Below are positions 20,322 to 41,338 of a stretch of DNA of 45,453 bases, piece by piece. Source of the DNA: Kalymmatonema hyalinum WJT4-NPBG1 (GTDB taxonomy: Bacteria > Cyanobacteriota > Cyanobacteriia > Cyanobacteriales > Nostocaceae); NCBI GenBank assembly GCA_019359075.1, contig JAHHIB010000069.1, positions 1 to 45,453 of the forward strand, written 5' to 3'. Each line of letters begins with the position of its first letter. Position 1 is the stretch's first letter. A program made the position numbers and the translations under genes. The notes below the pieces were generated by a model, which did not search any database, had not been told where the DNA came from, and was given only the letters and a program-made list of their open reading frames with translations.

Positions 20322-20352
20322 TGACACACGCAAAACGTGAGTTGACAGAACG

Positions 20353-21003: not shown

Positions 21004-21056
21004 TTTCTCAGTTTAATTGGAATGTTTGACAATTTAGTTATTAGTTCAACCAAGAA

Positions 21057-21070: not shown

Positions 21071-21111
21071 ATTAATGACCAAGCGTAAAACAATGACTTA
21101 ACACTTCTTAA

Positions 21112-22191: not shown

Positions 22192-22264
22192 GTTTTCTAA
22201 TTGTTTAATTCAGAGTGTAGCGGTAAAATATACATGAAACAACATTTTTATCAGGATAGGAATC

Positions 22265-22555
22265 CTAATTTAGAGTAAGTTTATCTGGATTGATTTCAGT
22301 TATATCTTCATCAGTAATTTGGAGGCGAGCGCAGAAAATTTTATCTGTCAGCATAGCACCGACCATTTCTCTTGTATAAATTTCTAGTTCAGCCTCCGGC
22401 AAAGTTTCAAATAAAAGACGTTGTTGGGGGAAAACAACACGTTCAAAGTACCAATGGGGAATATTGACAATCCGAATAATTTGAATACAGCTAGTTGCAT
22501 TCATATAACCGCAACGCTTGTATTTAGCAGGTAAAGCATCAAGAATTTGAACCAT
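22265..22555 (-). CDS. DUF1830 family protein
   Basis: 96 aa from ATG 22555. The frame is open further upstream, but that part is a shadow of the DUF1636 relic. The core MNATSCIQIIRIVNIPHWYF followed by ERVVFPQQRLLFE is characteristic, from memory, of the small cyanobacterial DUF1830 proteins, whose function is unknown. It lies between a COG0523 gene and a thrS relic, so a zinc-homeostasis link is suggested by context only. Confidence 0.72.
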   Translation of the reverse strand: MVQILDALPAKYKRCGYMNATSCIQIIRIVNIPHWYFERVVFPQQRLLFETLPEAELEIYTREMVGAMLTDKIFCARLQITDEDITEINPDKLTLN

Positions 22556-22953
22556 AACCGTACTTTCTGCTTTTAAAGCAGCTTTGAGGCGGGGGTGGAA
22601 TCCGCGCCAAAATTCCTTTTTGTAAAACATAGGATCGCTCTTGTCGTGGGACAATGCCATCAGTACTTGCAGCCGTATGGCTCACCCAGTTGGAGAATTG
22701 CTGCACTACCCAGAGGCGGTAAATCACCAAACATCAGGCTAGTTTTGTTTGATGCGGTAAAAGCAATAGCACAAGGTCGTTTACAAGCACTCAAACAGTC
22801 TGTTTCTGTCACTGGTCCAGTCGCTATTTTGGTTTCTAAATACAACTTTTGCACCGCCATCGCTAAGACGTGGGCGCAGGTGTGGCGAATTCGCAGTAGT
22901 TTCTCACTATCCTGCTCTTTCAAGTTTTGACTGGACTGGACTGAGGTGACCAT
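22539..22953 (-). pseudogene. Chimeric relic: thrS start joined to a frameshifted DUF1636 gene
   Basis: From ATG 22953 the protein begins as a threonyl-tRNA synthetase: LLRIRHTCAHVLAMAVQKLY then ETKIATGPVTE, the segment before the catalytic core. It switches abruptly to the Cys-rich DUF1636 motif DCLSACKRPCAIAF, then FGDLPPLGSAAILQL, and stops at 22660 (97 aa). The missing DUF1636 tail (DGIVPRQERSYVLQKGILAR, then IPPPP) is in the neighbouring frame down to about 22560. So a deletion fused two genes and a frameshift broke the second. An 11/14 Zur box lies 8 bases before the ATG. Confidence 0.75.
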
Positions 22954-24071: not shown

Positions 24072-24455
24072 TTAGAAATTAGCGTTAGCGAGGCTTGTGA
24101 TTTGTTCTTGCTCAGAGGAGGGTTTATCTTCACTGCGAGGAGAACCTAATAATTCGATTGTTTGGACAGTTACTACGGGTTTAGAGCGCATTGCACCTGA
24201 GTTTTTGTCTGTCCATCTATCAAATCCGAACTCGCCTAATATGGAAATTTGGGTTCCCTTTTTGACGTAATTTGCGATGACTTCGGCGGTTGAACCCCAG
24301 GCGATGAGGTCAAACCATAATGCAGTTTCACTTTTGTAAGGAGGTCTAACTGCAACCGAGATACTTGCTTTTACCGACCCGCTTTCAAAGTAGCGAATTT
24401 CCGGATTTTGACCGCAGCGTCCGACGATTGTGATGCGATTGAGATACTCGCTCAT
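24072..24455 (-). CDS. ssb: Single-stranded DNA-binding protein
   Basis: 127 aa. A clear OB-fold SSB domain: MSEYLNRITIVGRCGQNPEI, then the W-F-D-L strand (ALWFDLIAWGSTAEVIANYV) and KKGTQISILGEFGFDRW. It would coat single-stranded DNA during replication. The C-terminus (QEQITSLANANF) lacks the conserved acidic IPF tip, unlike housekeeping SSBs. The neighbouring protein at 23525 has such a tip, suggesting division of labour. Confidence 0.9.
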   Translation of the reverse strand: MSEYLNRITIVGRCGQNPEIRYFESGSVKASISVAVRPPYKSETALWFDLIAWGSTAEVIANYVKKGTQISILGEFGFDRWTDKNSGAMRSKPVVTVQTIELLGSPRSEDKPSSEQEQITSLANANF

Positions 24456-25784: not shown

Positions 25785-26435
25785 TTAAAACAGTGATAGT
25801 TGCGGATTATTTTCCTCTGTAGATTGATTGCTTAAGAGTGGTTTTTGCTTAAGCTTTTTACCCCATTCGTTGCTTGCACTTTTGATGACACGAGTGCGGA
25901 TATCGGTGGCGAGGCTTTCATAATCATGCTTAATTTGTTTGTAATCGATAGGTTTGATACCAATGCTTTCCCAAAGGTTATTGTAATCATAGTTTGGGAA
26001 TGGTTGGTGCTTGATAAGGGTAGTATGACTGCAATAAAGATAAACATTAGTCCATTCCCAAGACAGTGGAACCTCAAATGTGATTGGCATCATTACAGCA
26101 AGTACTTCGCTTGGCGTAGCAAGTTTCCCTACCTCCTCTTTATCTACCTCTTCTAGGATTGTATCTAGTCTATCAATTGCAATTGCTTGCCACACCCAAC
26201 TGGGAATAGCATCCCTCCATTCTCGCCCACCAGTGATTGTGGGACCAGCTAGATATTTAATTAATTGTGCATCCACCTCTGCTAGTTCTAACAAACAGGC
26301 GAATACCTTTCTATCCATTCCCATGCTGGCTAGAATCTTAAGCATCTTTTGAATGTTAGGAGTTAGTATTTTTTCTCCTTTTGATTTATTAGTTTTGATT
26401 GTTTGTTCAATATCAAACAGGCTTTGTTCTTGCAT
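25785..26435 (-). CDS. Unknown plasmid protein ending in a clamp-binding-like QLSLF
   Basis: 216 aa from ATG 26435, chosen because GGAG sits 7 bases upstream; an ATG four codons earlier contains that site. No catalytic motif recognised. It is helical in its first half (MLKILASMGMDRKVFACLLE) and Trp-rich in the middle (PLSWEWTNVYLYCSHTTL). The last residues NPQLSLF match the beta-clamp-binding consensus QL(S/D)LF, and QEQSLFDI near the start is similar. With clamp and clamp-loader genes next door, docking on the sliding clamp is plausible. Confidence 0.65.
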   Translation of the reverse strand: MQEQSLFDIEQTIKTNKSKGEKILTPNIQKMLKILASMGMDRKVFACLLELAEVDAQLIKYLAGPTITGGREWRDAIPSWVWQAIAIDRLDTILEEVDKEEVGKLATPSEVLAVMMPITFEVPLSWEWTNVYLYCSHTTLIKHQPFPNYDYNNLWESIGIKPIDYKQIKHDYESLATDIRTRVIKSASNEWGKKLKQKPLLSNQSTEENNPQLSLF

Positions 26436-26449
26436 TTTAATCTCCATAT

Positions 26450-26509: not shown

Positions 26510-27322
26510 TTAGGGTATGAGTAGGTTATCCCACACGTTTCTAGTTGATATATGTCCTTGAAATTGTTGCCTTGCTGTTCTAAATTTAGCAAGCAATCCC
26601 GTGCTTTTAGTCTTTTCCCACCAGCTTGTCTGTAGGTAGGTGAGTAATAAAGCTTGACTTGATTTATCCTGTTTACTTGTCCAATGACTCACTTCCAAGG
26701 CTGTAATTACATTTTTAGGAGGTACTTGCAGTTGGTCGAGTATGCTTTCAGGTATGGAATTTAACAAACTGTGGAATGCGATCGCGCGACCTGGACTGCC
26801 CGAACAAAGTTTGAGTATGTCTTGGTGTAGGAAGATTTTCTGATTTTCCAGAATAGTTTTTACTTCGTCAATAGGTAGTTGAGCAAATGGTACTATTTGA
26901 CACCTGCTTTTGATAGTAGTCAGTATATTCTGGGCTTGGGATGTGATAAGAATGAATATCCCTTTTCCTGGTTCCTCTAAGGTTTTGAGTAGGGCGTTGG
27001 CGGCGGCGGGTGTAATAGTGTCGCAGTCATGGATAATTACTACTTTGTGATTGCTTTCAACGGGAGAAGTTGAAACAAAGGTGATGATTTCCCGTACCTG
27101 TTCTACTCCGATAGTGAAATTTTCCTCTTGCGGGCGTACTTTCAGCATATCTGTGGTGCTACAGATGTAGGAGGCAAATAAAAGGGCGGTTTTGGTTTTA
27201 CCTACCCCTTCAACGGTGCTGGTAAATAGGTAGGCAAGAGCAGTTTTACCGCTTGCAATCGCGTTATTTAAGATAAGTTTTGCGGTATGCTGGGCGACTA
27301 TCTCGTTAAAGAGGTTGTTCAT
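26510..27322 (-). CDS. holB: DNA polymerase III delta-prime-like clamp-loader subunit
   Basis: 270 aa AAA+ protein. A P-loop-like STVEGVGKTKTA is present, as well as VVIIHDCDTITPAAANALLK, TLEEPGKGIFILITS and the arginine-finger motif KSRCQIV. This is the layout of delta-prime, which completes the clamp-loader ring and supplies the trans arginine. Shorter than the E. coli protein (334 aa). Its start overlaps the delta gene by 4 bases, so the two are translated together. Confidence 0.85.
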   Translation of the reverse strand: MNNLFNEIVAQHTAKLILNNAIASGKTALAYLFTSTVEGVGKTKTALLFASYICSTTDMLKVRPQEENFTIGVEQVREIITFVSTSPVESNHKVVIIHDCDTITPAAANALLKTLEEPGKGIFILITSQAQNILTTIKSRCQIVPFAQLPIDEVKTILENQKIFLHQDILKLCSGSPGRAIAFHSLLNSIPESILDQLQVPPKNVITALEVSHWTSKQDKSSQALLLTYLQTSWWEKTKSTGLLAKFRTARQQFQGHISTRNVWDNLLIP

Positions 27323-28272
27323 AAAGTGCAGATTTTAATGATGGTAGGGGTGAAGTTGTCAATGCCAGACTTAAGTTCGCCTTCAAGTTGGATCAGTGCT
27401 ATGAGGGTTTGTTTAAGTTTGAGGGCGCTTATAGTTTCAACTTCTTTTTTGAGAAAGTACAGCCTTTTGGGGTTATTGAGTTCGCCGAGTGTTGAGATTT
27501 TGTTGTCGGGGAGTTTTTCTTCTACCCCTGCTTTGGTAATTAGCCAAGTGCGGAAGTAACTTATGAGAGTAGCGACTATCTTGAGAGGGTGTTCGTTATT
27601 ATCTAGCAGGCGATGAAGTATTTGTGCTGCTGTATTAGCTTTACTATTTTTGATGGCATGGGCAAGTCCGGTACAACTGGTATTGTTGTTGCTAATTAAG
27701 TGTGAGATATCCTCAATATCTAGTTTTTCCCCTTGGGCATAGATAGCAAGCTTCGCGAGTTCGCTATCAAGCCTTGCAGTATTGTTTCCAATTGCCTCTA
27801 CTAAATAGCTTATGGCGGTGGGAGCAACGTCTAACGAGTGGGTTTTTACTGCTGCTTGAATGACTTTTTCTATCCCTTCTTTATCCCAACTGGAGATGAG
27901 GGGAAATTCTTCAATATCGGTATGTTGGAGTAGTGCTTTTACGGCTTTACTTCTGCCATCAGGCTTGCTTTGTGAGGTAATTAACAGTAGGTTTCGTTGG
28001 GGTATTTTGGGAAGATTTTCTTGCAATAATAAAAATATTTTATCCGGGCATTTATTGAAAATCGTTCCATCTGTAATGTGAACAATCTTTCCTCCTTCTC
28101 CGAAAGGAATTTTCATCACTTCTGTTATTGCTTGGGATATTGCTGACGCTTTGTTATCAACTCGGATGTAGTTGAATATTTCCCACTCTTGGGTAGTGAA
28201 ATCTTTAATTAATTGTTCTACTCTTTTTGACATTGAGTGGGTATCTTCCCCATAGATGAATTTTACTGGCAT
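27319..28272 (-). CDS. holA: DNA polymerase III delta-like clamp-opening subunit
   Basis: 317 aa, close to typical delta length. The N-terminal part KFIYGEDTHSMSKRVEQLIK and the domain beginning TSCTGLAHAIKNSKANTAAQ, then LHRLLDNNEHPLKIVATLIS, are hallmarks of HolA, the subunit that opens the beta ring. It lacks a P-loop, as expected. First gene of a two-gene operon with delta-prime. Confidence 0.85.
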   Translation of the reverse strand: MPVKFIYGEDTHSMSKRVEQLIKDFTTQEWEIFNYIRVDNKASAISQAITEVMKIPFGEGGKIVHITDGTIFNKCPDKIFLLLQENLPKIPQRNLLLITSQSKPDGRSKAVKALLQHTDIEEFPLISSWDKEGIEKVIQAAVKTHSLDVAPTAISYLVEAIGNNTARLDSELAKLAIYAQGEKLDIEDISHLISNNNTSCTGLAHAIKNSKANTAAQILHRLLDNNEHPLKIVATLISYFRTWLITKAGVEEKLPDNKISTLGELNNPKRLYFLKKEVETISALKLKQTLIALIQLEGELKSGIDNFTPTIIKICTL

Positions 28273-28518
28273 GGGTATATTACTAGTTTATTTTATATTT
28301 AATTGCGTTAGCCAGTAAGTGGTGGTCAATAAATATTACTTGAGACAATAGTTCTTTTAAGCTTTGGTTTTATTCTGAAAAATAACTACTAGATTTGTTA
28401 ACCTAGCAGAAGATTTTTATTTTTTTGAATCTAATTATTTGCCTGCATTTATAATGTTTAACACATTGCGTTACTCGGCGAGGATTCTTTGCATTGTTCA
28501 TTGAGAAAATTTTACCAT
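28273..28518. other. AT-rich intergenic region upstream of the clamp-loader operon
   Basis: 246 bases, very AT-rich, between the holA start and the end of the 263-aa gene. It should hold the holA promoter. No iterons or strong hairpin recognised. Confidence 0.4.
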
Positions 28519-29310
28519 TTATATCTCCTTTAAATTTACTTTCTCATTTTTAGTTTGCTTTATTACCCTGATTGTAGGATGTTCAACTGATTGATTACCG
28601 TGATAATTGCGCCAGTTATCTAACTCATTGAGGTATTGTAATATAGCAGATGCACCTGCTACTTGATATAGTGAAATAGCCGACTCCCACTCCTTCAAAC
28701 TTGCTTTTTTATCATTAAGAATTTTGATGATGGCAGTAGGAAGTTTGATTTCCTTGCCAGTATCCAAATCAAAGTGCGGTGTCGTTTCTAGAAGAAGTTC
28801 TTGTTCTGATAGAGGTACGCCACTGCTTTTAAGATTTATCTCATTTAGTTGGGCAGTGATACCTGATAGAGGTAGACTTTGTTGGGTTACACGCGTAACT
28901 TTCCCTTGGTAACTTCTCTTTTGTTTAACTACCTTAGATTTGACAACGACAGGATTTTGGGGAGTGGGTATCAAGTAAGCTTGGGGGAGTTCAAGTGATA
29001 GTTGTTCTTTGAGTCTGTAGGGTACGGTTTGTTTTTGAGCTGGGATAATCTCGTAGGAGAAGTTTGCTGTTTTTCTGGGGTCGCCAAACTTGCGGAGTTT
29101 GACTTGTAGCTTGTAAAATATATTTCCTCGAATGAGAGTATGGCTATCAAGAACTACAGGTGTAGTATGTTCCCACCATTCAATTTCAATAACCCGGTCG
29201 CCATCTAATAAGTCATAAACGTTGGTTAATCTGGCGTGGGGTTTGTCTTTCAGGAAGTTATCTAACCACTTGCGTTGTTTTTTGTTGAGTAGTGATAATT
29301 TTTTAGCCAT
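28519..29310 (-). CDS. Unknown protein coupled to the B-family polymerase
   Basis: 263 aa, starting 2 bases after the polymerase stop, so it is almost certainly translated from the same message. The basic N-terminal part (LNKKQRKWLDNFLKDKPHAR) precedes a beta-rich stretch with VIEIEWWEHTTPVVL. Further on come a Lys-rich linker and a helical end. No catalytic motif is recognised. Position suggests an accessory or processivity factor for the polymerase. Confidence 0.7.
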   Translation of the reverse strand: MAKKLSLLNKKQRKWLDNFLKDKPHARLTNVYDLLDGDRVIEIEWWEHTTPVVLDSHTLIRGNIFYKLQVKLRKFGDPRKTANFSYEIIPAQKQTVPYRLKEQLSLELPQAYLIPTPQNPVVVKSKVVKQKRSYQGKVTRVTQQSLPLSGITAQLNEINLKSSGVPLSEQELLLETTPHFDLDTGKEIKLPTAIIKILNDKKASLKEWESAISLYQVAGASAILQYLNELDNWRNYHGNQSVEHPTIRVIKQTKNEKVNLKEI

Positions 29311-29312
29311 TG

Positions 29313-31136
29313 TTAGAACAGCGTTAATTGTTTGGATCTATCTAGCATTTGAGGATTTGCTATTTGCAAGATTTCTACTCGTTTTTGGGGAATTAAATTG
29401 AGATAATACTGTGATGAATACTTCTGTGTATTTTTGATATTTTGTACACCCTGAATACTATAATAGTAGGTAACGATATCTCCAGGTTTTCCTATTTTGA
29501 GAAGTTCTTTTTCACCTTCACGAATTTTGCGAGTGATGGAAAGTTTTTCTATCGGATACTCTCCTGACAAAATCTGCGATTTGACATTTCTGTAATATTC
29601 CTCGGCGCGTAGCTGATTTTGAATGAAATGGGTTAAATATTCAACGGGAAATTCTTTTTCTAGCTTTGAGCGAGAGCGACTTCTCCAACTACCTTTGCGG
29701 ATAATCCTGCCATCTTTTAGCCACAAGAGATAGTTCTTAGTTCCTCTTTCGGGAATAAACATGGCTTCAGCGATAAACTCTAATTTGACGATTATCCCTT
29801 TGGGTAATTGAGATTGAAGTGTGGCGTATACTTCTTCTGGGTTGGAATGAGTAAAAAACACTCCATCGGTATCAACTTCTATGGGGACTGCGCCAGCTTG
29901 ATTGATTACCTCAATCATAAACTGTAGGATACGCCGACCATAAGCTGTTACCAGGGCTGCTGCTTCCATATCATTGAAAGCAAGTTCAGATGTCCCGAAG
30001 AACCCAAACTGAGAATTAGCTAAAACCTTGGTGGATTCTCTTTTTTCCTTGGCGACAATATTTCCAGTTTTGGCAAGTTGTTCCAGTCTTGATTTTTCAT
30101 TTACCAAATATTGTAGGATGCTTAACCCAATGCGATTTGTATCCTTACGAGAGGCAATCCCTTTCGACAATATGGCATTGGGATACATTGAACTAATGTC
30201 TATGTATCCAACTTTCCTATACAGTCCTGGAACAGAATACGCTATTCCCCCTTGGAATTTGTATTTGCGGTCGGGTTTAGGTTTTATCCCTTGATAGTGA
30301 TGCTCGAAGATTTTCTCCCATTTGGTACCATTACCCGCGAGGGCTAGTTGTTGGAGGTTCATTCCCGGTACAACTAGCGCTTCGTAGTAATATGAGGGTA
30401 CTAGCCTATTGGCTATGAGTTGGGTATCTTCTAAGTCGTAAGTAAGATACTCCTTAATTTTCTGCCATCCCTCACTACCGCAACCAGTTTTCCAGCAAGC
30501 TAGAATTTCCTCATAAGGGAGAACTAGTCTCGCTTGAGAGCGTAATCCCATTTCTAGGACGGCTTGTTTGAGTGACCGTCCGTTGGTAAGCTCCTTAGCG
30601 ACAAAATCCCATCTGAGAACGCAGATATAGATATCTACATGGAGGCTGTTTCGGATGAATACTTCTCGGACAGTTAGTGGTGTACCACGTACCTGGGCAG
30701 TTCGGATAGTGCGTGCTCTAGATGCAATTTTAAAGGGATGAGCGATGCCATGTAATTCGCAGCGGGTGATAATAAACGGTAGGTCAAACTCAGTTCCATT
30801 GTAGGTATAAATTACATCTAGTTTGCTTGTTTCTAGATGTTTGAGAAACGAGATGAGAATTTTGCTTTCGGAGATATCCATAAAAATGGTGACTTTCCCC
30901 ATTTCGCTCATACAGCCAATCGCATAGATGCGATTCTCTCTTGGGTTTATTCCTGCTGTTTCAATATCAACTACCAGAGTTTTGAGACTAGAGTAGGTCG
31001 AAATATTTACTGTAGGTTGCCACTGGGGTATAGGAGTGGTATCTTCCCAGAATATGTCGAGTTTTTCCTCATCAACTATAATTTTATTACTAAGTTTGGT
31101 AATAAAATTTCTAGGGTTATAACTCATAAATTTCAA
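29313..31136 (-). CDS. B-family DNA polymerase with 3'-5' exonuclease domain
   Basis: 607 aa, shorter than most cellular PolB. Exonuclease motifs: DIET (Exo I, residues 57-60), YNGTEFDLP (Exo II, 112-120), YDLED (Exo III, 233-237). Polymerase motifs: DISSMYPN (A, 313-320), KVLANSQFG (B, 370-378), EVDTDGVFF (C, 420-428). So both activities are probably intact, although motif C has Gly in place of the usual Ser. The C-terminus SKQLTLF looks like a beta-clamp-binding peptide. It is encoded with bacterial clamp and clamp-loader genes but no DnaE/PolC. Probably the plasmid replicase or a repair polymerase. Confidence 0.92.
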   Translation of the reverse strand: MKFMSYNPRNFITKLSNKIIVDEEKLDIFWEDTTPIPQWQPTVNISTYSSLKTLVVDIETAGINPRENRIYAIGCMSEMGKVTIFMDISESKILISFLKHLETSKLDVIYTYNGTEFDLPFIITRCELHGIAHPFKIASRARTIRTAQVRGTPLTVREVFIRNSLHVDIYICVLRWDFVAKELTNGRSLKQAVLEMGLRSQARLVLPYEEILACWKTGCGSEGWQKIKEYLTYDLEDTQLIANRLVPSYYYEALVVPGMNLQQLALAGNGTKWEKIFEHHYQGIKPKPDRKYKFQGGIAYSVPGLYRKVGYIDISSMYPNAILSKGIASRKDTNRIGLSILQYLVNEKSRLEQLAKTGNIVAKEKRESTKVLANSQFGFFGTSELAFNDMEAAALVTAYGRRILQFMIEVINQAGAVPIEVDTDGVFFTHSNPEEVYATLQSQLPKGIIVKLEFIAEAMFIPERGTKNYLLWLKDGRIIRKGSWRSRSRSKLEKEFPVEYLTHFIQNQLRAEEYYRNVKSQILSGEYPIEKLSITRKIREGEKELLKIGKPGDIVTYYYSIQGVQNIKNTQKYSSQYYLNLIPQKRVEILQIANPQMLDRSKQLTLF

Positions 31137-31311
31137 ACTTTACGAATTATAAATGCTAAATTGATTTGTGAAAGTATATTTACTTGACTATTTGATTTCC
31201 AACCCGGAGGGCGTATGCTAATGTGGTGGTAATGAAACTTGACTTATTTTATTGATTAAATATTGTAAGAAAAAATCTCCCCTAAAATTGGGAAAAGTGG
31301 ATTTTTGATTT
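31137..31311 (-). promoter_or_regulatory. polB leader region and hairpin
   Basis: An AT-rich gap between polB and the IS element. A stem AAAAATC/GATTTTTT with inner CCC/GGG at about 31274-31317 is followed by T on the minus strand and may be the former terminator of dnaX, now separated from it by the IS. The polB promoter presumably lies at 31150-31260. Confidence 0.4.
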
Positions 31312-31483
31312 TTATAAGGTTACGCGATAGGCACAAAACTCCTGAGTATGTGAGTGACTCAGGAACTCACATACGTCCTTAAGGCGTTTGAGTTGTAGTG
31401 CCAACGGCAATTTTAATTGCCCTCCGGGTTCAGCAGTTGCTACAAGTCGGCAGAGCCGCCCAACGCACTGCTGAACCGCGACA

Positions 31484-31888
31484 TCAAGTAGTATCGTGGT
31501 GTCTTTGCTCCTCAATATATTTTCGTATTGTTTCATTGGAAACATTCCCTGTTGTTGAGACAAAATACGAGTGAGTCCATAGAGATGGTAGCTTAAGCAG
31601 GTGTGGAAAACAGGAGCGCAAGTAGCGAGAACTTCGTCCTTTGATTGACTTGACCACTTCATGTGCTGCCACGGTGGGTGGAACATTAACCAACAAATGC
31701 ACATGGTCACTCATAATTTCTAGAGCTATTACAACCCAGTCTTTTTCTTGACAGGTTTCCCAAATAATTTGCCGTAGACGTTTCTCTACGTCACCAACTA
31801 ATACCTTTTTGCGTCTCTTTGGTATCCAGACTAGATGGTAGTTTACCAGAGAGATAGTGTGAGAATTTCTCCGGTACTGTTGTGTCAT
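31484..31888 (-). CDS. tnpA: IS200/IS605 TnpA (Y1 transposase)
   Basis: 134 aa, normal for this HUH-fold single-strand transposase. The metal motif HVHLL has His62 and His64, and the catalytic Tyr124 lies in ETIRKYIEEQ. Intact by sequence, so the element could be active. Divergent from tnpB with 67 bases between. Confidence 0.9.
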   Translation of the reverse strand: MTQQYRRNSHTISLVNYHLVWIPKRRKKVLVGDVEKRLRQIIWETCQEKDWVVIALEIMSDHVHLLVNVPPTVAAHEVVKSIKGRSSRYLRSCFPHLLKLPSLWTHSYFVSTTGNVSNETIRKYIEEQRHHDTT

Positions 31889-31955
31889 ACTATGAGATTC
31901 TGGTATATTTGACTGTAGATAAATATATCACTGTCTACGGCAAAAGGATAAAAAT

Positions 31956-33431
31956 TTGCTTCTCGGTTACGTCTACAAGTTACGTCCAAAACAGGCGCAA
32001 GTTGTCAAAATGGATAACTGGCTAGATATGCTCAGAGCAAATTACAATTGGTCGCTGGCAGACAGGATTGATACCTACCAACAGCGATTTCTTCAAGGTG
32101 AATATTGTGACATAAAAACTAAGTCAGTAGCTTACCCCTTGGTTTGTTGTGTGTGTAGTTTCGGTGCTAGCGGTGAGCCTTGGCGTGATAACGGTAAAAA
32201 GAGAAGTGCCGGAGAAATACAAATTACATCGCTTCCAGAACTTAAGAAGGTACGTCCTTGGTACAAAAACATAGACTCAACTGTTTTACAGCAAAATATA
32301 AAGCGACTCGATAAAGCTTTTGAGAACTTCTTTGACGGTCGTGGTTTCCCTAAGTTCAAAAACCGTAGCACAATGAGGTCTTTTACTTTTGCAACTGAGG
32401 TGAAACTGGATGGGAACAAAATCTATCTACCCAAGTTAGGGTGGATGAGATTTTATAATTCACGTCCAATCCCAGAGGGGTTTAAAGTTAAATCTGTCAC
32501 TGTGCGTAAAAAGGCAGATGGCTATTATGTTTCTATCAGGGTTGAGGATGTAAGCATACCCGCATTCCCAATTAAACCCAGCAATGAAATCAATACTGTT
32601 GTTGGATTAGATATGGGATTGGGCAAACTTGTTTACTGTTCCGACGGTTCAGTTATAGACAATCCTCGATTTGCTACCAACAAGAAAACTAAGCGCTTAC
32701 AACGCATTCTAGGGCGTCGTGTCTCTAGGAAAAAGAAACGCTCTCACAACAGACGTAAATCACAGCGAAGACTGTCACTTCTTCAGCACCGTATAGCCAC
32801 CAAACGAGAAGCTTATCAGTGGCAAGTAGCTAAAAAGATAGTCAATAAGAGTAGCGCTGTTGCCATAGAAGATTTGAACATTTCCGGCATGATGAAGCGT
32901 TGCAAGCCTAAATACGATGATTCCAAAGGTAGATTTCTCAAGAATGGGCAAAGCGCTAAACGCGCTTTATCTCGTTCAATCGCAGATGCTTCCTGGTATG
33001 CTTTGATTTCCAAGATTGAGTACATGGCATCATTGTCAGGAAAAGTCATCTTGAAAATCAACCCGCGTTACACCAGCCAGACTTGTATTGTTTGTGGTCA
33101 TATTGATGCTGCAAGCAGAGATGGTGAAAAATTCATTTGCACCAATTGTGGTCACGTGGATGACGCAAACTTGCAAGCAGCTAGGAACATCAAGTTAAAA
33201 GCAGTTAACGAATACGGTTTGCTGCTTAAACAAATCAAAAAGGTACGGCGGGACTTGCCGGAACCAAAACAGCTAGTACTGTTTGAAACGCCCACCACTG
33301 AATCAACAGTGGTTAAAAGGAGACAACACCACGCTCATAAGAGCAAACGTGGTGTGCCTGGGAACTTGGGACTACAGTTGGATCTGTTCTTCCAAGATAA
33401 CAACAATGGTGGCTCTGCCACCTCGTTGTGA
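31956..33431 (+). CDS. tnpB: IS605-type TnpB RNA-guided nuclease
   Basis: 491 aa. It starts at TTG, supported by AAAGGA 6 bases upstream. RuvC residues are Asp219 (GLDMGLG), Glu305 (AIEDLN) and Asp402/403 (VDDANLQAA). The zinc finger is C377/C380 and C395/C398. All catalytic parts are present. TnpB nucleases use a guide RNA from the element's right end and help keep the transposon. The tail after residue 430 carries QLVLF (439-443) and QLDLF (474-478), both like beta-clamp-binding peptides. Confidence 0.92.
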   Translation: MLLGYVYKLRPKQAQVVKMDNWLDMLRANYNWSLADRIDTYQQRFLQGEYCDIKTKSVAYPLVCCVCSFGASGEPWRDNGKKRSAGEIQITSLPELKKVRPWYKNIDSTVLQQNIKRLDKAFENFFDGRGFPKFKNRSTMRSFTFATEVKLDGNKIYLPKLGWMRFYNSRPIPEGFKVKSVTVRKKADGYYVSIRVEDVSIPAFPIKPSNEINTVVGLDMGLGKLVYCSDGSVIDNPRFATNKKTKRLQRILGRRVSRKKKRSHNRRKSQRRLSLLQHRIATKREAYQWQVAKKIVNKSSAVAIEDLNISGMMKRCKPKYDDSKGRFLKNGQSAKRALSRSIADASWYALISKIEYMASLSGKVILKINPRYTSQTCIVCGHIDAASRDGEKFICTNCGHVDDANLQAARNIKLKAVNEYGLLLKQIKKVRRDLPEPKQLVLFETPTTESTVVKRRQHHAHKSKRGVPGNLGLQLDLFFQDNNNGGSATSL

Positions 33432-33475
33432 ATTTCCCATCTTCTAGATGGGAGAGCGTCAAAAGGTGAAAAGCA
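33432..33475 (+). ncRNA. Probable omega/reRNA end of the IS605 element
   Basis: The CCCATC-TTCTA-GATGGG hairpin directly follows the tnpB stop. In related elements the guide RNA spans the tnpB 3' end and right-end hairpin, with the guide copied from the flank. Here the flank would be the dnaX end. Extent inferred. Confidence 0.45.
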
Positions 33476-33478
33476 TTT

Positions 33479-34792
33479 TTATGCAGTTTGTAATTGAGAA
33501 TCAGTTTGAAGCTTTTCTACTAGTTGTACCCATGCTGGAGCCTTTTTTCCATTAATGGGTGTAAGCTTCTGCCAGTGTTCCTGCAACTGCGCTTGTGATA
33601 GATGGGGTAATTGCTCCTTAGCCCAGTTAATCGCATCCTGAGCAGTTTTCCAATCCTTCCAGGGTTGGTAGCTACTCTTTGTGGTTGGAACTATCTCGAT
33701 AAGGGTGGCTTCCAACCATAAGTGTGCGCTTTCATCTCGCATGAGATTTTGGCGTACCATTAGGAGTGCGATCGCCGAGTGAATGTGGTTAATACTCCAC
33801 GATTTGGAGATGGTTGTAAGTTCGTTCCAAGTGTCCTCCTCTAAAAGAGTGAGATTTCTGTCATTGGGGTTGATTTTGCAGATAAGTAAGTCTTTTAGAA
33901 AGCTGACAAGACTAGTGTGGATGGTGATTGGGTGCTTGCCATATTTCATCCAATCTTGGAGAATGCCTAAATTGCCTGTAATTTCCCCCTTGGTGATATT
34001 TTCACAGAAAGTGACTAAATCATGTTCGGGGATAGTACCTGATAGTTCCCATACCCAGTTGGGAGTGATTTCCCCTTCTTCCAATAAGGTTAGTTGATCT
34101 AGGAGTTTGAGTGAGTCGCGTAGGTGCCCGTGGCAAGCTTTAGCGATCGCGGTTAATGCTGTAGGAGTGATATTTATACTTTCTTGGTGGGCAACTTTTT
34201 CCAGGTAATCTACAACTAGTGAGAGGGAAACTCTTCTAAAGTCAAACTTTTGGCAGCGGGAGATGATAGTTTCTGGAACCTTGTGTACCTCGGTAGTACA
34301 GAAGATGAACACAACATGAGCTGGTGGTTGTTCTACTGTTTTAAGTAATGCTTGCCAGGATTGCTGGGAAAGGGCATGACATTCATCTACTATTAGGATT
34401 TTGCGTCTACTCTCGATTGGTTTAAGTTGAAGGTTAGAAACTATCTCGCGGATGTTATCTACTCCTGAGTGACTGGCGGCGTCGAGTTCGGTTACATCGA
34501 GGGATGAGGAGTGAGAAATAGTCTGACAAGAATTGCACTCGCCACAGGGTTTGGTTGTTGGTTCTTGGGTTGATTGACAGTTGAGGGATTTGGCGAGAAT
34601 ACGGGCTGTACTGGTTTTACCTGTACCCTTGGGACCGGTAAATAGATAAGCTGGGGCAATTTTGCTGAGTGCGTTCGTGGAGTGACTTCCTCCTGAGAGT
34701 ATTGCATTATCCAGAGTGCGTACAATATGTTCTTGTCCAATGATTTGTGAAAGTTGCTGGGGGCGATATTTGAGATGCAGTGGTATGTACAT
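33479..34792 (-). CDS. dnaX: DNA polymerase III tau/gamma-like clamp-loader ATPase
   Basis: 437 aa, gamma-like length with no long tau tail. Walker A GPKGTGKTS (53-61), zinc module C72 with CGECNSC (C83, C86, C89), Walker B DECH (136-139), arginine-finger SRC (178-180) and sensor 2 GHLRDSLKLL. It is the motor of the clamp loader together with delta and delta-prime encoded 6 kb away. Its stop lies 4 bases from the IS605 element. Confidence 0.92.
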   Translation of the reverse strand: MYIPLHLKYRPQQLSQIIGQEHIVRTLDNAILSGGSHSTNALSKIAPAYLFTGPKGTGKTSTARILAKSLNCQSTQEPTTKPCGECNSCQTISHSSSLDVTELDAASHSGVDNIREIVSNLQLKPIESRRKILIVDECHALSQQSWQALLKTVEQPPAHVVFIFCTTEVHKVPETIISRCQKFDFRRVSLSLVVDYLEKVAHQESINITPTALTAIAKACHGHLRDSLKLLDQLTLLEEGEITPNWVWELSGTIPEHDLVTFCENITKGEITGNLGILQDWMKYGKHPITIHTSLVSFLKDLLICKINPNDRNLTLLEEDTWNELTTISKSWSINHIHSAIALLMVRQNLMRDESAHLWLEATLIEIVPTTKSSYQPWKDWKTAQDAINWAKEQLPHLSQAQLQEHWQKLTPINGKKAPAWVQLVEKLQTDSQLQTA

Positions 34793-34827
34793 ATTTGAGA
34801 GTGTTTGATTTTACAGATGAATTTGTG

Positions 34828-34855
34828 TATAGCCAGTTTTATGACTGACTATACT
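34828..34855. terminator. Hairpin between dnaN and dnaX
   Basis: GTATAG-CAGT pairs with ACTG-CTATAC (34828-34837 with 34846-34855). A T-run follows on the plus strand only, so on the dnaN strand it may be a weak terminator or RNA-stability element. Confidence 0.4.
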
Positions 34856-34862
34856 TTTTGGT

Positions 34863-36227
34863 TTATACAGCTGTTGTTTCTGGTTCTGGTTTTAGTTCTT
34901 GCTTGCGCTTGCGGGATTTTGATTTGTTTGCGGTAGGTGTATCAGACTGGGGTGTGTCTGTCACATTAGTTGTTTCATTGGATACTTTTTCTATTTCTGG
35001 AAGTTTATCCACTTCAGTAGTATTTTCTGCTGCTGTTTCATTTTCATTTTCTGGTTTTGAAGTGTCAGTGTTATATTTGGCAAGACCTTCTGGTTTCTCG
35101 AAATCTTGCACCTCTACGGGCATAATTAGTGTTAGTTGGTCAAGTAATCCACCTAAAGGAGAAATGATGACTGGTTGGAGAGGCTTGTTAAATCGGAATA
35201 CAATTTCATCGGTTGAGATGTGCTTGAGTGCTTCTTGTAGATAGCCGCTGTTTAGCCCAATACCGATATTTTCTTCTATACTGGTTTGGGTCTTGATAAG
35301 CAAAGAATCTACCGCATCCCCAATATCAGTATTACCCGTCATTAATGTTGCCTGTTGGTCATTGACCTCCCATAGGATTTTGACAATTTTGTGTTTTTTC
35401 TCTGCGAAATGGCTGATTCTTTTAAGAATTATTTCCATTCCTTTGCGTTCTACGATTAACTCGTTAGCAAAGCTATTAGGAATAAGGTGGTTAATATGGG
35501 GAAATTCTCCTTCTAACAACCTGGATGTGAGTTCAGCATTTGGCAAGATAAACTGGACAGTGTTGTTTCCAACCTTGAGGGTACAACTGCTATTTTCAGC
35601 TGTTGTCGAGAGGATTTTTCCCAACTCGGTGAGACTTCTTCTAGGAACTGTGAATGAGATCGGCGAGTAGTTTCCCTCTAGCTTGGAGGATACCAACGCA
35701 AGGCGGTGTCCGTCGGTGCTGGCGCAACTCCAATTTTCGCCTTGTAACTGGAAATGTACGCCTGTGAGGATAAGTTTGGTTTCATCTGCGCTGCAGCAAT
35801 ACAGACAAGCTTCTAAGGCAGCTTGTAGCTTTTTGCTAGGGATACTGATTTCAGTGCAGTTTTGTGTTTCTGGGATACTTGGAAAATCTTCTGGATTTCC
35901 TCCTACAATGCGACATTTCCCCGTACTATGGCTGATAACGCAGATACGTTCGCTTACTTCAATATCCAATTCGCCGCTTCCTAGATTGTTAACCGTGTCG
36001 GCTAGTAGTTTGGCGTTTAAGGCGACTACACCTGGTTGTAGAATATGAGTTATTGCTGTAGTTTTGATACTGACATTTAAGTCAGTACCAATGACGGTAA
36101 GTCTGCCTTCATCCGAAGCTTCGATTAGCAGACTTCCGAGTATGGGGTCTACTGGTCTTGTGGATATGCCGTTCTTAGCTGTTTCTAGGAGTTCTGCCAG
36201 TACAGATTGAGTAGTTGTTAGTTTCAT
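34863..36227 (-). CDS. dnaN: Sliding clamp (DNA polymerase III beta subunit) with acidic tail
   Basis: 454 aa. MKLTTTQSVLAELLETAKNG is a typical beta-clamp start, and three clamp domains end near residue 370 (QLTLIMPVEVQDFEK). The remaining ~80 residues are a low-complexity Glu/Thr/Ser tail with a Lys/Arg patch, which normal clamps lack. ATG 36227 is preferred over an open GTG at 36272 because that GTG lies inside a terminator-like hairpin. The ring would tether the plasmid polymerase and other QLxLF proteins. Confidence 0.93.
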   Translation of the reverse strand: MKLTTTQSVLAELLETAKNGISTRPVDPILGSLLIEASDEGRLTVIGTDLNVSIKTTAITHILQPGVVALNAKLLADTVNNLGSGELDIEVSERICVISHSTGKCRIVGGNPEDFPSIPETQNCTEISIPSKKLQAALEACLYCCSADETKLILTGVHFQLQGENWSCASTDGHRLALVSSKLEGNYSPISFTVPRRSLTELGKILSTTAENSSCTLKVGNNTVQFILPNAELTSRLLEGEFPHINHLIPNSFANELIVERKGMEIILKRISHFAEKKHKIVKILWEVNDQQATLMTGNTDIGDAVDSLLIKTQTSIEENIGIGLNSGYLQEALKHISTDEIVFRFNKPLQPVIISPLGGLLDQLTLIMPVEVQDFEKPEGLAKYNTDTSKPENENETAAENTTEVDKLPEIEKVSNETTNVTDTPQSDTPTANKSKSRKRKQELKPEPETTAV

Positions 36228-36296: not shown

Positions 36297-37232
36297 TTAA
36301 TAAGGCGGTTCCTCGATTGTTGAGGGAGGTAATGCAGGTATATCGCTAGTATTTACACCTGCTAGCTGGTGATGTGTAGCTACGACGGCGGAGGTTTTAC
36401 CAATGCGGTGGCTAAATTCAGGATTAGCTTGCATGATTGTTTGGAATTCAACTTCTTTGTCTTCGCAAAAGAATTCGAGGAAATTGCTACCATCAGGGTT
36501 GGGAGATTTGTAGGAGTCAACGACTGCTACCCAGGATTTGTCGCGTTGGTTGGTTGCTTCTTTGGGTTCGTGTGATGGTATAAAGGTGGGTTGAAAGATA
36601 CCAAGGCGGTGGAATTCTTGGGATTTTTCAGCAACGGGTATACTTGCAAACCTGGCGAACGCTACCTCCAGATCGCGTTGGAATTGTTTGTAAGCTTCAC
36701 CAAATCTAGAAGAGGCTACTCCCTTGATTGATAAGGCGATTGGTTTGTTGTGGAGATTTTTATTGTTTTCATCTACTAGGTTAATTAGGTAGAACCGTCG
36801 CAGTACTACTTTTTCTTTCCCTAAAGCTTGGTACATATCATACCCGTCGCCGTACTCGTAGATACCGATAATCGCACCATTGTCCCTTTGTTCGATATAC
36901 CGGGGTGATACATCGAGGATGTGCATACGGGGTGATTGCAGGAGAATTCCCATTTCTGGAGTACCGCTGGAGAAGGTGTGCTTGTGGGTGGGTTCGCCTC
37001 CTTGCCAATCGATGCCTCCTAAGTATTTGTCTTTAACGAACAAACCAACCTTTTCTGCCTCCATATGATTGATTATCTGGCAGATGCAAATATTGCTGAT
37101 GGGAGCGTTATATTCAGGGTTGGCAAATTTTGATACTAACGTCTTTCTCTGTTCGAGATTATCTGGAATTACAGTTTGTGGTTGTTCTTTTTGTTCTTCT
37201 TTTGTGTCTGGTTTGATTGGAGTTTTAGCCAT
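36297..37232 (-). CDS. Unknown cyanobacterial plasmid protein (possibly DUF5895)
   Basis: 311 aa. A Lys/Glu-rich N-terminus precedes a domain with NICICQIINHMEAEKVGLFV, GGIDWQGGEPTHKHTFSSG and GILLQSPRMHILDVSPRYIE. A helical middle part, EAYKQFQRDLEVAFARFASI, follows. It ends in STIEEPPY, loosely like an acidic SSB-type tip. I tentatively relate it to DUF5895, a cyanobacterial family of unknown function. Lying directly before dnaN, it may bind DNA during replication; this is inference. Confidence 0.6.
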   Translation of the reverse strand: MAKTPIKPDTKEEQKEQPQTVIPDNLEQRKTLVSKFANPEYNAPISNICICQIINHMEAEKVGLFVKDKYLGGIDWQGGEPTHKHTFSSGTPEMGILLQSPRMHILDVSPRYIEQRDNGAIIGIYEYGDGYDMYQALGKEKVVLRRFYLINLVDENNKNLHNKPIALSIKGVASSRFGEAYKQFQRDLEVAFARFASIPVAEKSQEFHRLGIFQPTFIPSHEPKEATNQRDKSWVAVVDSYKSPNPDGSNFLEFFCEDKEVEFQTIMQANPEFSHRIGKTSAVVATHHQLAGVNTSDIPALPPSTIEEPPY

Positions 37233-37604: not shown

Positions 37605-37823
37605 TTACCTTGTTGGATATTTTGGTTTTCTTTCCAACATTTTGTTGGCTAAATTGGTGATATTCCTCACTTTCCAACCAGCTAGTTTACATTTGGTTAG
37701 AGCATCTTCTAACTCTTGTTGGTTGAGGATTTTGTACCTGAGATGGCTCCCATATGCAGGGAATAGGTATGTAACATACTTATTTTCATCAACCTGGTAG
37801 TATGCTATGCGCTTGTAATACAT
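37605..37823 (-). CDS. Small unknown basic plasmid protein
   Basis: 72 aa. Its ATG overlaps the stop of the methyltransferase gene (TAATG). Tyr- and Lys-rich (MYYKRIAYYQVDENKYVTYL; ending NKMLERKPKYPTR), so nucleic-acid or protein binding is possible. No family recognised. Confidence 0.65.
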   Translation of the reverse strand: MYYKRIAYYQVDENKYVTYLFPAYGSHLRYKILNQQELEDALTKCKLAGWKVRNITNLANKMLERKPKYPTR

Positions 37824-38884
37824 TACGGCTTATTTATTTTGATGATCCGGGTAACTACACCTGTGGGGTTGTTTGATTGGATAAAGGCATCTTTGGGTAG
37901 AGATTCTTTGTATGTATTTCGGCTATCTAACCATGCTTTAAAATCTTTGTATTTGCGATTAAAGAATACTGACTCTGGAATTATTGCTATTAGTATTCCT
38001 CCTGATTTCATTAACTTCCACGCATGGTATATATGCTCACTTAATTGAGAAAAGGGAGGGCTCATAATGATATGTGAGTAGAGATTATCAGTTGTGTAAT
38101 ATAGAAAATCTCTACCTACTAAATTGAATCTTTTCAATTCAAGTATCTTGCGTAGAGTTGGATTAATTTCTACGACTTCTAAATTGGCTTGAGGATGTTT
38201 TTTGAATATGGATTCAGCAATGCAGCCAGAACCAGCACTGGGTTCAAGTATGTGAGAATTTTCATTAATTTCTGCTAGTTGAATTAGGTGATCGCAAACA
38301 GAAGAAGGGGTAGGGAAGAAGTCTCCTGACTTCATTCCGATGATTTCTAATTCCAGTCGGTTTAACTCTTGTTGGGTGGTATCAACCTCTTTAAGTTTAA
38401 CAACTTTCTGAATTTCAGCGATTGCAGACATAATTTCGCCTGCGGTGTAGATACTTGCACGGTTGAGAGACTTTACCCTATCTTGATAAGATTCATTGTT
38501 AAAAACTTCCTTGACTTCTTCGAGAGTCTTTGCTCTTTGAGAGATTTTGTACAAGGCTTCTACTTGGGACTTTTGGGAGATACCACGCAGCACTTCGGGA
38601 ATATTTCCGAAGAACCACATTTCGCCTATTGCAAGCAACCAAGACTGGATTGTCTGTAGTTCCACTCCTTCGGCAATAATTCCTTGGGCTATTGTTTTGC
38701 GGTGTTTGGTTGCCCGCTGTTTGTTTATAGCGGGATTGAGCTTACTGTTAATTGATTGTTGCATTGAGGCAGCAAGTTCTCGCAGTTTTGCAGCTTGCTT
38801 AGGGTTAGGAGTGTTAAAATTGAAGGTATAAAAGCTGGTGGGGGTTGTGTGTTGTGAAGTTCTTTTAAAGAGTGATAGCTGCAT
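37823..38884 (-). CDS. N6-adenine-type DNA methyltransferase
   Basis: 353 aa from ATG 38884; a GTG eight codons earlier is open. AdoMet motif I is ILEPSAGSGCIAESI and the catalytic motif IV is SPPF, a variant of NPPY/NPPF. FFPTPSSVCDHLIQLAE is the usual lead-in. A ~190-residue helical N-terminal region precedes it. The protein starts MQLSLF, a beta-clamp-binding-like peptide at the extreme N-terminus. No cognate restriction enzyme is seen, so it is probably a solitary plasmid methyltransferase. Confidence 0.85.
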   Translation of the reverse strand: MQLSLFKRTSQHTTPTSFYTFNFNTPNPKQAAKLRELAASMQQSINSKLNPAINKQRATKHRKTIAQGIIAEGVELQTIQSWLLAIGEMWFFGNIPEVLRGISQKSQVEALYKISQRAKTLEEVKEVFNNESYQDRVKSLNRASIYTAGEIMSAIAEIQKVVKLKEVDTTQQELNRLELEIIGMKSGDFFPTPSSVCDHLIQLAEINENSHILEPSAGSGCIAESIFKKHPQANLEVVEINPTLRKILELKRFNLVGRDFLYYTTDNLYSHIIMSPPFSQLSEHIYHAWKLMKSGGILIAIIPESVFFNRKYKDFKAWLDSRNTYKESLPKDAFIQSNNPTGVVTRIIKINKP

Positions 38885-39935: not shown

Positions 39936-40769
39936 TTAGACGAGATGATATTTCCGAAGGTTTGTAATTGTGGTTTGGATGCTGCGACAGGACATAGTAA
40001 TTAGGTTGAAATAGCTAGCAAACTTGGTTATTTTTCCTGCTAGTGTTAATTCTAGAAGGTATTGAGATGCGATAGCTGATGTCATGCGGTTTATGAATAG
40101 AGTTTGGTAATTCAGTATTTGAATTTCCGCGCATGAGAGTTTATTGCTGCTAAGTTCTTCAGGCTTTGGAATTAGCAGTTCGGGATGCACCAGCGCTGGG
40201 GATGGTAGATGCTTCCAGAAAGAGGGATTGTCTGCGTTATCCGAGGCGCTTACAATATCGAAGTCAGCGTGGCTTCCCAATAGAACTTGTCCGGAAATGC
40301 TTGTGTTACCGCAGTCCAGCCAGAATAGATCAGCTTGCTCGCGGCTGTTGCTATATTCTAGACACGAGTGAATTTGCGTCCTGGCGGCGGCATTGTCTAC
40401 GCAGCCGATGATAACCGTGAGGGTATTCCATCTGTATTTTTCTACATGGTTGGGGGAGAACCAATCTGAAATTGCTGTGACTTCTAGCCCATATTTAGCA
40501 CTACATCTGGTGGCTAGACACTGTGCTTTGGGCAAACTTATCTCTGATGGTTGGTAATTTTGGCGTGCAATATTTTTAGTTTCGACGCTATCTCCATCAA
40601 TGATGGTGAGGTTAGCCTTTTTCTCGTTTTGCTGTAGCTGTAGTATGAGACGGCAAACATCTTCTGCGAGGTATCCTCCTGTGCCACCAGCCCCCACTAA
40701 GATAAAATCTACTTTGCCGTGGGGATGGGGGAGAACGGGTAAGAAAATTTCTGTATCAATTTGTATCAT
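39936..40769 (-). CDS. PRTRC-type ThiF/E1-like enzyme
   Basis: 277 aa Rossmann-like adenylating enzyme of the ubiquitin-activating (E1/ThiF/MoeB) superfamily. The nucleotide loop is GAGGTGG (26-32). IIDGDSVETKNIARQNY supplies the Asp, Asn, Arg and Gln of the ATP site, with Lys81 after it. VDNAAAR is the usual downstream motif, and Cys153 in LDCGNT is the candidate thioester cysteine. It would adenylate the C-terminus of the Ub-like protein at 42790. It overlaps the JAB gene by 4 bases and is last in the operon. Confidence 0.85.
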   Translation of the reverse strand: MIQIDTEIFLPVLPHPHGKVDFILVGAGGTGGYLAEDVCRLILQLQQNEKKANLTIIDGDSVETKNIARQNYQPSEISLPKAQCLATRCSAKYGLEVTAISDWFSPNHVEKYRWNTLTVIIGCVDNAAARTQIHSCLEYSNSREQADLFWLDCGNTSISGQVLLGSHADFDIVSASDNADNPSFWKHLPSPALVHPELLIPKPEELSSNKLSCAEIQILNYQTLFINRMTSAIASQYLLELTLAGKITKFASYFNLITMSCRSIQTTITNLRKYHLV

Positions 40770-41338
40770 GACTCAAATATAAAATTGGGGTCAATTTCAA
40801 AGAAGTGGTTGTACACCCCCAAGCGGGTATATATAGTGGGAGTCGTATTCACTGTCCCGATAATTCCGAATATGCGGAACTTTCCTGACTCTTCTTGGTT
40901 GTCCTGGCATGAGGGGGTCGCTTTCATACAGCCGTGGCTATGTACTTCAACCAATGCTTGGCTGTATTTGAAATTTATTGTTTCTAGCGATCGCACATGG
41001 GTTGGGGATGCTTCTTGCAGTGGAGTATGATACCACCAAATATTATTCTCAACTCCCAGGTAAAAGAGGATTTCTTGATGGGGATTAACTTGTGCAGCAT
41101 TGATAATGTCTGCAATGATGCTTGCTGGAACTTTCGGTACATTTAATTTGAAATAGGGTTGTATTTGTGCCAATCCTGGTATCTGGGTATGAGCGATTTG
41201 CAGGCAGATTTCAAGTTCTGGGCGGTGCGATCGCGCATAGACTCCATCAGCTGCAAGCCAGTATTCCTGAAGCTTTTGGCTGTAGGGAGTCAGGTTGTGA
41301 CTGATGGCATAGTTATAACTGATGAAGGGGTTATTCAT
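40766..41338 (-). CDS. PRTRC protein A-like JAB/MPN metallopeptidase
   Basis: 190 aa from ATG 41338, which overlaps the stop of the preceding gene; another ATG nine codons earlier is open. The JAMM zinc site is VEVHSHG (Glu131, His133, His135), then Ser143 and Asp146, followed by GKFRIFGIIGTV. JAB peptidases cleave after the C-terminal Gly of ubiquitin-like proteins, to mature them or remove them from targets. Flanked by E2-like and E1-like genes, so its substrate is probably the Ub-like protein of the same operon. Confidence 0.82.
   Translation of the reverse strand: MNNPFISYNYAISHNLTPYSQKLQEYWLAADGVYARSHRPELEICLQIAHTQIPGLAQIQPYFKLNVPKVPASIIADIINAAQVNPHQEILFYLGVENNIWWYHTPLQEASPTHVRSLETINFKYSQALVEVHSHGCMKATPSCQDNQEESGKFRIFGIIGTVNTTPTIYTRLGVYNHFFEIDPNFIFES

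Follow-up and report, generated by a model that had tools for sequence, protein, structure and literature searches.

The stretch of DNA analysed here, called the window below, is the entire 45,453-base contig C60 (JAHHIB010000069.1) of the 8.4-Mb, 174-contig genome (G000) of the cyanobacterium Kalymmatonema hyalinum WJT4-NPBG1, and its minus strand carries a set of replication genes in which a B-family DNA polymerase (PolB) lies together with a bacterial β sliding clamp and its loader. An earlier note on this DNA had read the set as the hybrid replisome of a plasmid. No exact terminal repeat of at least 16 bases is present in the window, and its nearest plasmid relative is pBOCT1 of Brasilonema octagenarum, whose PolB is 92% identical. 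Because the window is one contig without such a repeat, the absence of DnaE or of a helicase was judged on 13 complete relatives. The features on which the argument rests are the following (aa, amino acids).

34863–36227, minus strand: dnaN, plasmid-encoded β sliding clamp, 454 aa from ATG (TIGR00663, 247 bits, cut-off 138)
33479–34792, minus strand: dnaX, clamp-loader ATPase, short γ-like form, 437 aa (TIGR02397, 406 bits, cut-off 250)
31484–33431: IS200/IS605-type insertion between dnaX and polB, with TnpA at 31484–31888 on the minus strand and a TnpB-like gene at 31956–33431 on the plus strand (PF01797, PF01385, PF07282)
29313–31127, minus strand: polB, B-family DNA polymerase with 3'-5' exonuclease, 604 aa (DNA_pol_B_exo1, 47 bits; DNA_pol_B, 29 bits; cut-off 23 each)
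29316–29330, minus strand: codons of the conserved C-terminal QLTLF tail of PolB, a putative β-clamp-binding motif
28519–29310, minus strand: X263, conserved protein between polB and holA (homologues in 40 loci)
27319–28272, minus strand: holA, clamp-loader δ subunit (TIGR01128, 175 bits, cut-off 80)
26510–27322, minus strand: holB, clamp-loader δ' subunit (PF13177, E 1.3e-33; NF005638, 253 bits, cut-off 230)
25785–26447, minus strand: Y220, adjoining holB and ending QLSLF (codons 25788–25802), putative clamp client
24072–24455, minus strand: ssb, single-stranded DNA-binding protein (SSB; PF00436, and TIGR00621 above its cut-off)
43653–44609, minus strand: prim-pol primase with a PriCT-2 domain (PF09250, PF08707)
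43219–43767, minus strand: Z182, open reading frame (ORF) as listed, adjoining prim-pol and ending QLSLF (codons 43222–43236)
37823–38884, minus strand: DNA methyltransferase-like protein beginning MQLSLF (motif codons 38867–38881), with weak MTS/N6_Mtase and strong PHROG methyltransferase matches

In the direction of transcription on the minus strand, the order is prim-pol (44609–43653), Z182, two unknowns, E2-D, JAB, ThiF, a weak PD-(D/E)XK match, a small unknown, the methyltransferase-like gene, a DUF5895 gene, dnaN, dnaX, the IS200/IS605 insertion, polB, X263, holA, holB, Y220 and ssb. The beta clamp, tau/gamma, delta, delta-prime and SSB genes named in the earlier note are all borne out by curated models above their cut-offs, and so is its prim-pol by PF09250 and PriCT-2, ssb and prim-pol (43653–44609) both lying outside the span that it described. 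Its tau/gamma needs a correction: DnaX is present (TIGR02397), in a short, γ-like form of 437 aa. What it missed is the IS200/IS605 insertion between dnaX and polB, as well as the gene at 28519–29310 between polB and holA, for which we found no family match in Pfam, NCBIfam or PHROGs. At or near the site of that insertion, relatives hold other inserts (e.g. a methyltransferase or a transposase). Note that the start of polB is likelier the ATG at 31127, three codons inside the listed ORF with its TTG start at 31136, and that the listed Z182 ORF overlaps prim-pol, its true start being probably further in.

The polymerase itself is complete. Namely, the exonuclease residues D57/E59, N113/F117/D118 and Y230/D234 are invariant in all 16 aligned sequences (14 cyanobacterial and two from Deinococcus), as are the polymerase residues D313, K370, N374, G378 and D422-T-D424, plus K467-N-Y469; we take these to be exonuclease motifs I–III, polymerase motifs A, B and C, and the KxY motif. 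The AlphaFold2 model has a mean predicted local distance difference test score (pLDDT) of 89.2 and a predicted template modelling score (pTM) of 0.82, with residues 597–603 and 605–607 below a pLDDT of 50. When this model is compared with the PDB by Foldseek, archaeal B-family polymerases come out on top with the whole chain aligned (query TM-score 0.57–0.73 over the best 50 matches); a profile search agrees with this fold, and a fold search of BFVD returns general viral B-family polymerases only. The protein is thus a whole B-family polymerase that includes a proofreading domain, and no fragment, and the description of a short PolB with exonuclease in the earlier note holds on Pfam matches, invariant catalytic residues and fold alike.

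The feature that may connect PolB with the clamp is its C-terminus. All 44 cyanobacterial loci in which the gene reaches its end (45 including the window; L032 stops at a contig end) encode a QL[ST]LF tail, followed by two extra residues in L045, and across these loci identity to the window protein falls to 43%. The 44 loci are kin, so that their agreement counts as conservation and not as 44 separate cases. Peptides that bind the β clamp have the consensus QL[S/D]LF, and a peptide of Escherichia coli DNA polymerase II (Pol II) ending QLGLF has been crystallised in the clamp cleft (PMC3716654, available in part); the Pol II gene of E. coli K-12 (NC_000913) encodes this QLGLF end. On the side of the clamp, N320, Y323, M362, P363 and H175 are kept in all 14 aligned clamps of PolB plasmids, with G174 changed to S in three, R176 changed to K in three, and K or R at position 152. 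We take N320, Y323 and R176 to be cleft residues. The remaining positions, G174, H175, R152, M362 and P363, are named as such in the available part of PMC3716654.

What is more, the five genes recur together. All 13 complete cyanobacterial plasmids (178–395 kb) have them in the order dnaN-dnaX-polB-holA-holB; polB is split in one of these plasmids, and holB was found by BLAST in records where it was unannotated. The combination which the earlier note had proposed to look for in plasmids is thus a conserved one. PLSDB types 10 of these plasmids as conjugative, two as mobilizable and one as non-mobilizable. Family searches for replication genes, which give matches in control genomes, detected dnaN in each of the 13 whole records and a single prim-pol in each, and detected DnaE/PolC (PF07733), PolA and DnaB_C in none of them. 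Both the replicative helicase that the earlier note had not seen and the DnaE or PolC gene that it had suggested checking for are, in other words, missing from 13 of 13 complete relatives in these searches. In the genome of the window, the single DnaE match lies on contig C165 and the chromosomal clamp on C20, with the plasmid clamp on C60, and the prim-pol is the sole PF09250 match. Of 31 loci from genomes, 27 have both dnaN and dnaX within the examined flanks of polB. A second dnaN of L013 lies outside the flank, probably on the same contig as polB; L028 and L032 end at contig edges; and the chromosomal copy at L030 is incomplete, the same genome having a plasmid (L045) with all of the genes.

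A comparison of four divergent plasmids shows how far this association reaches. Namely, each of the three other plasmids matches the same 23 ORFs of Nostoc C052, among them prim-pol, dnaN, dnaX, polB, holA, holB, ssb, ParA, ParM, a protein of 2.6 thousand amino acids (kaa) and a DUF6753 protein; the other 12 of the 23 sit in one 17-kb block. The 2.6-kaa protein (scanned in two pieces), X263 and Y220 gave no Pfam match at the limits used. This sharing makes the replication module a part of the plasmid backbone. The ratio of nonsynonymous to synonymous substitution rates (dN/dS), relative to the nearest plasmid, is 0.155–0.271 in nine of nine module genes tested, and since the module also recurs in relatives down to 43% PolB identity, it is no chance grouping.

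Polymerases of this kind are rare. A survey of 72,556 plasmid records yielded such a PolB in 27 (18 cyanobacterial and nine from Deinococcus); of the 18, 13 were analysed as plasmids, AP018264 and AP018182 as loci L018 and L021, and H3, H8 and H10 were left out. In an even draw of 386 cyanobacterial genomes it was present in 12, with five copies intact and seven partial or interrupted. Incomplete polB copies on chromosome-size contigs (L030, L085, L087, L090 and L091) suggest past integration of such plasmids. The possibility that the module is dead was rejected in view of the dN/dS values and the intact motifs, although polB is partial or interrupted in those seven of 12 genomes.

The plasmid clamp matches all three Pfam DnaN domains and carries a low-complexity C-terminal extension. 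The plasmid DnaX has the Walker A motif GPKGTGKT, zinc-type cysteines and an SRC motif, and is 437 aa long compared with a 680-aa frame for the chromosomal protein, the two aligning over 370 residues at 44% identity. No τ-domain model is among the best 25 of the 28 Pfam matches listed for the window, in a general scan that included no search with τ-domain models. A DnaX this short would fit a loader that has no need to bind the α subunit of DNA polymerase III (Pol III). Among relatives, two Calothrix plasmid DnaX proteins keep GAKGTGKT and have SRA in place of SRC, and the dnaX ORF of L003 lacks its start. Identities to the chromosomal counterparts in the same genome are 35% for dnaN, 44% for dnaX, 35% for holA and 32% for holB, and in a FastTree phylogeny of DnaN, rooted on E. 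coli alone, 14 plasmid clamps fall outside 31 chromosomal cyanobacterial clamps with a support of 0.917. The idea of a recent copy of host clamp genes was rejected on these identities (32–44%) and on this placement. Five clamps from another class of contigs fall inside the chromosomal group. This second class (L122–L126, on G103:C2, G074:C10, G078:C21, G072:C18 and G064:C2) has a long, divergent dnaN in frames of 497–592 aa, with dnaX and holA nearby in two of the five and a PIF1/RecD-like helicase in three of five as scanned; each of these genomes has its single DnaE match on a different contig.

PolB may not be the only protein of these plasmids that ends in a clamp-binding peptide. Of the ORFs with at least 90 aa in the window and the four plasmids (1413 in total), 13 carry Q[LM]xLF in the final nine residues, namely five polB, three Z182, two Y220, two 1.7-kaa methylase/helicase-like proteins (with weak methyltransferase and helicase matches) and one other. 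Homologues of Y220 end in Q[LMT]xLF in 32 of 35 loci, the other three being altered or truncated ORFs, and the structural model of Y220 is of low confidence (pLDDT 62.3). Z182 has a QL[ST]LF end in five of the eight records with that place in view. At the N-terminus of the methyltransferase-like homologues, MQLSLF occurs in five of 29 and MQLSLL in 19 of 29, the region being absent in five; QLSLL is off-consensus, and the methyltransferase is therefore less sure as a client. An internal QLRLF, present in 27 of 29 homologues of the PD-(D/E)XK-like protein, may be structural. From their termini, Y220 and Z182 are putative clamp clients, and the methyltransferase is a possible one.

Where does the polymerase come from? 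Its nearest phage relatives, at about 39% identity, are those of Nostoc, Anabaena and Dolichospermum phages, with seven of 19 phage records covering at least 80%; two of these phage PolBs (Nostoc phage A1 and Dfl-JY23) are without a QLxLF tail. Kazlauskas 2020 (PMC7544198, available in part) assigns the PolBs of Nostoc and Salinibacter phages to group G3, which is bacterial, and as these are the phage matches of the window PolB, it would presumably belong to G3 too. The label "archaeal/phage-like" of the earlier note is thus a loose one: the fold is indeed nearest to archaeal B-family polymerases, the nearest sequences being those of Nostoc and Anabaena phages (39%) in a bacterial group. Identity of the element as a phage or prophage was rejected, since its complete relatives are plasmids mostly typed as conjugative and the phage relatives examined have no such tail. 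The mix that the same note found striking has precedents in part, namely in E. coli Pol II for a PolB on a β clamp (PMC3716654, available in part) and in a report of 2016 for the plasmid PolB (PMC4916379). This report, Chénard 2016, describes a plasmid/phage PolB group and names Cyanothece 7424 pP742402 (our L036), A. variabilis plasmid C (L039) and Nostoc 7120 pCC7120beta as kin to phages A-1/N-1; its text contains none of the words clamp, sliding and DnaX. In the open-access literature, as far as its texts were available and with most subscription journals outside it, we found no report of a plasmid PolB that comes with a β clamp and loader of its own. In this literature, then, we saw no earlier account of the clamp-and-loader partners, PolB itself having been known since 2016.

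It is our belief, held with moderate confidence, that these genes encode a plasmid replicase in which PolB replaces the α subunit of Pol III on a β clamp; the genes and the motif are observed, and we infer the function from them. DnaX, HolA and HolB would form a short (γ-type) loader that places the plasmid β clamp on primed DNA, and PolB, with its polymerase and proofreading exonuclease, would be held on that clamp by the disordered QL[ST]LF tail at its C-terminus, thereby taking the place of the C-family α subunit. The prim-pol would make primers, SSB would coat single strands, and Y220, Z182 and perhaps the methyltransferase would be additional clients of the clamp, with unwinding presumably left to host DnaB or to a plasmid protein not yet recognised. 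We likewise infer that PolB would bind the plasmid clamp rather than only the host clamp, that the loader would assemble, and that the set would be used in plasmid copying. Of the hybrid replisome proposed earlier, the pairing of PolB with a bacterial clamp and loader (13 of 13 plasmids, with a clamp-binding tail) stands, and a working replisome would follow if these steps hold. The wider statement, which we regard as evenly poised, is that a lineage of large cyanobacterial conjugative plasmids has swapped the C-family replicase for PolB while keeping and carrying the β clamp and loader, with a client set based on QLSLF that comprises PolB, Y220, Z182 and the methyltransferase.

That said, a number of observations weigh against the replicase reading, and they are given here together with the alternatives that they favour. 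Two concern what a replicase would need: a replicative helicase was not found by the DnaB_C search of the 13 complete plasmids, with helicases of superfamily 2 (SF2) carrying MZB domains near the module only in Gloeothece and Calothrix among the plasmids scanned, and no initiator was recognised in the plasmids analysed, where PLSDB gives a rep cluster in seven of 13. A third is that one of the five intact PolB copies from the 386-genome draw ends in QLSIF (L083), the other four having QL[ST]LF.

The alternative that survives best, while in our view unlikely, is that PolB acts on the clamp as an accessory in plasmid repair or damage tolerance and that host Pol III copies the plasmid. A tail of this type is also present on E. 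coli Pol II, itself a B-family polymerase (PMC3716654, available in part). What is more, in plasmid C of Trichormus variabilis ATCC 29413 (L039:9028–11733) polB is interrupted after about residue 264 by an IS5-type element, which leaves an ORF for the exonuclease (matching residues 19–264) and one for the polymerase (matching residues 298–607), the 0441 record showing the same two pieces in the match table. At least one lineage of these plasmids is thus maintained although its PolB is interrupted. There, PolB is either not strictly required, in agreement with a non-essential role, or active as a split enzyme made up of the two halves. Plasmids of Deinococcus carry a relative of PolB without dnaN, and plasmid 1 of D. 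deserti has DnaE in addition to its PolB relative and no dnaN. However, a repair polymerase would require neither a clamp of its own nor three loader subunits, SSB and a prim-pol, and four divergent plasmids retain all of these alongside the partition genes.

Rather improbable, to our mind, is a role of the set after conjugation, in second-strand synthesis or in the establishment of the plasmid in the recipient, and not in vegetative copying. Conjugative plasmids often bring SSB and primase, and the PLSDB typing (10 of 13 conjugative, two mobilizable) is in keeping with such a role. However, in several plasmids the module adjoins the partition genes, PLSDB types one of the 13 as non-mobilizable, and we know of no precedent for a clamp and a full loader in transfer-linked synthesis.

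Would PolB need the clamp of its own plasmid at all? It could mainly use the chromosomal β clamp, with the plasmid clamp and loader serving other clients or competing with host machinery. The 31 chromosomal cyanobacterial clamps have nearly the same cleft as the plasmid ones, which leaves the partner clamp ambiguous, and tails of the type QxxLF also occur in relatives without linked clamp genes: two Deinococcus plasmid PolBs end in QPGLF on plasmids with no dnaN, and five of 14 PolB relatives on viral contigs have Q[MT]xLF in stretches where no linked clamp genes were seen. The tail is hence no proof that the plasmid clamp is the partner, and clamp-type tails predate the plasmid module. On one such viral contig, of 89.7 kb (L069), a PolB relative of 38% identity ends QTSLFDV, and 17.8 kb of it have no match to the clamp genes of the window. 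Furthermore, polB recombines between lineages with diverged clamps. In a comparison over the 37 loci with all five genes above the length limits (which excludes L036, L039 and others), the window PolB is 82–83% identical to those of L003, L034 and L023, whose dnaN are only 51–55% identical; relative to L003 the values are 83% for PolB, 51% for dnaN and 48% for holA, and relative to L015 they are 74%, 86% and 78%. By these identities, PolB has been exchanged between plasmid lineages. This agrees with an interface that consists of a short peptide, and it also implies that close adaptation of PolB to a single clamp is not required. However, all 13 complete plasmids keep polB in tight linkage within the operon of the clamp and loader, and we consider main use of the host clamp very improbable.

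The remaining features of the window are the following.

36297–37232, minus strand: DUF5895 protein directly upstream of dnaN (PF19247)
39936–42029, minus strand: E2-D, JAB and ThiF genes, a PRTRC-like cassette in the same block (PF14460, PF14464, PF00899)
4825–6081: actin-like (ParM-type) gene

A DUF5895 gene stands beside dnaN in most plasmid relatives. The PRTRC A, B and ThiF models score 50.8 of 101.8, 61.6 of 131.45 and 136.2 of 144.75 bits, i.e. the cassette is related but under the cut-offs; E1/E2/JAB operons are listed in Anabaena (PMC1779556, available in part). The cassette might conceivably modify proteins of the replication set. Apart from the replication genes, a block at 8255–22660 with ZnuA, an ABC ATPase, an ABC-3 permease, ALAD, two CobW-type proteins, GTP cyclohydrolase I and DUF1830 looks like a zinc-limitation set, and the contig also encodes an RTX-repeat protein (17869–19620) and a WD40-repeat protein (11287–12369).

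In the textbook view, bacteria use DnaE or PolC on β, and archaea and eukaryotes use PolB on PCNA. If the replicase reading is true, the module would show that a replicase can be replaced on a clamp system that is retained, the two meeting through a short linear peptide. The module is a small protein set for direct tests of clamp choice, of polymerase replacement and of plasmid independence from host Pol III, and would, if so, provide proofreading polymerases that are compact (about 604 aa) and clamp-dependent.

How does this set compare with known systems? E. coli Pol II, too, is a polymerase of the B family, and its C-terminus is a QLxLF peptide, QLGLF, which docks in the cleft of the β clamp (PMC3716654, available in part). 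Pol II is, however, a chromosomal repair and translesion enzyme working on the host clamp, whereas the window PolB is a plasmid-borne protein of 604 aa that shares an operon with a clamp and loader of the plasmid, and the complete relatives have no α subunit. The plasmid and cyanophage PolBs of Chénard 2016 are of the same polymerase lineage, but the two phage PolBs examined have no QLxLF tail. With the bacterial Pol III holoenzyme the module has in common β, DnaX, δ and δ' of bacterial type, and it differs in that the C-family α is absent from 13 of 13 complete plasmid relatives and that the plasmid DnaX is short. Finally, in T4-type and archaeal replicases a B-family polymerase is tied to a ring clamp by a tail peptide, but there the clamp and loader are gp45 or PCNA with gp44-62 or RFC, whereas the window has DnaN, DnaX, HolA and HolB.

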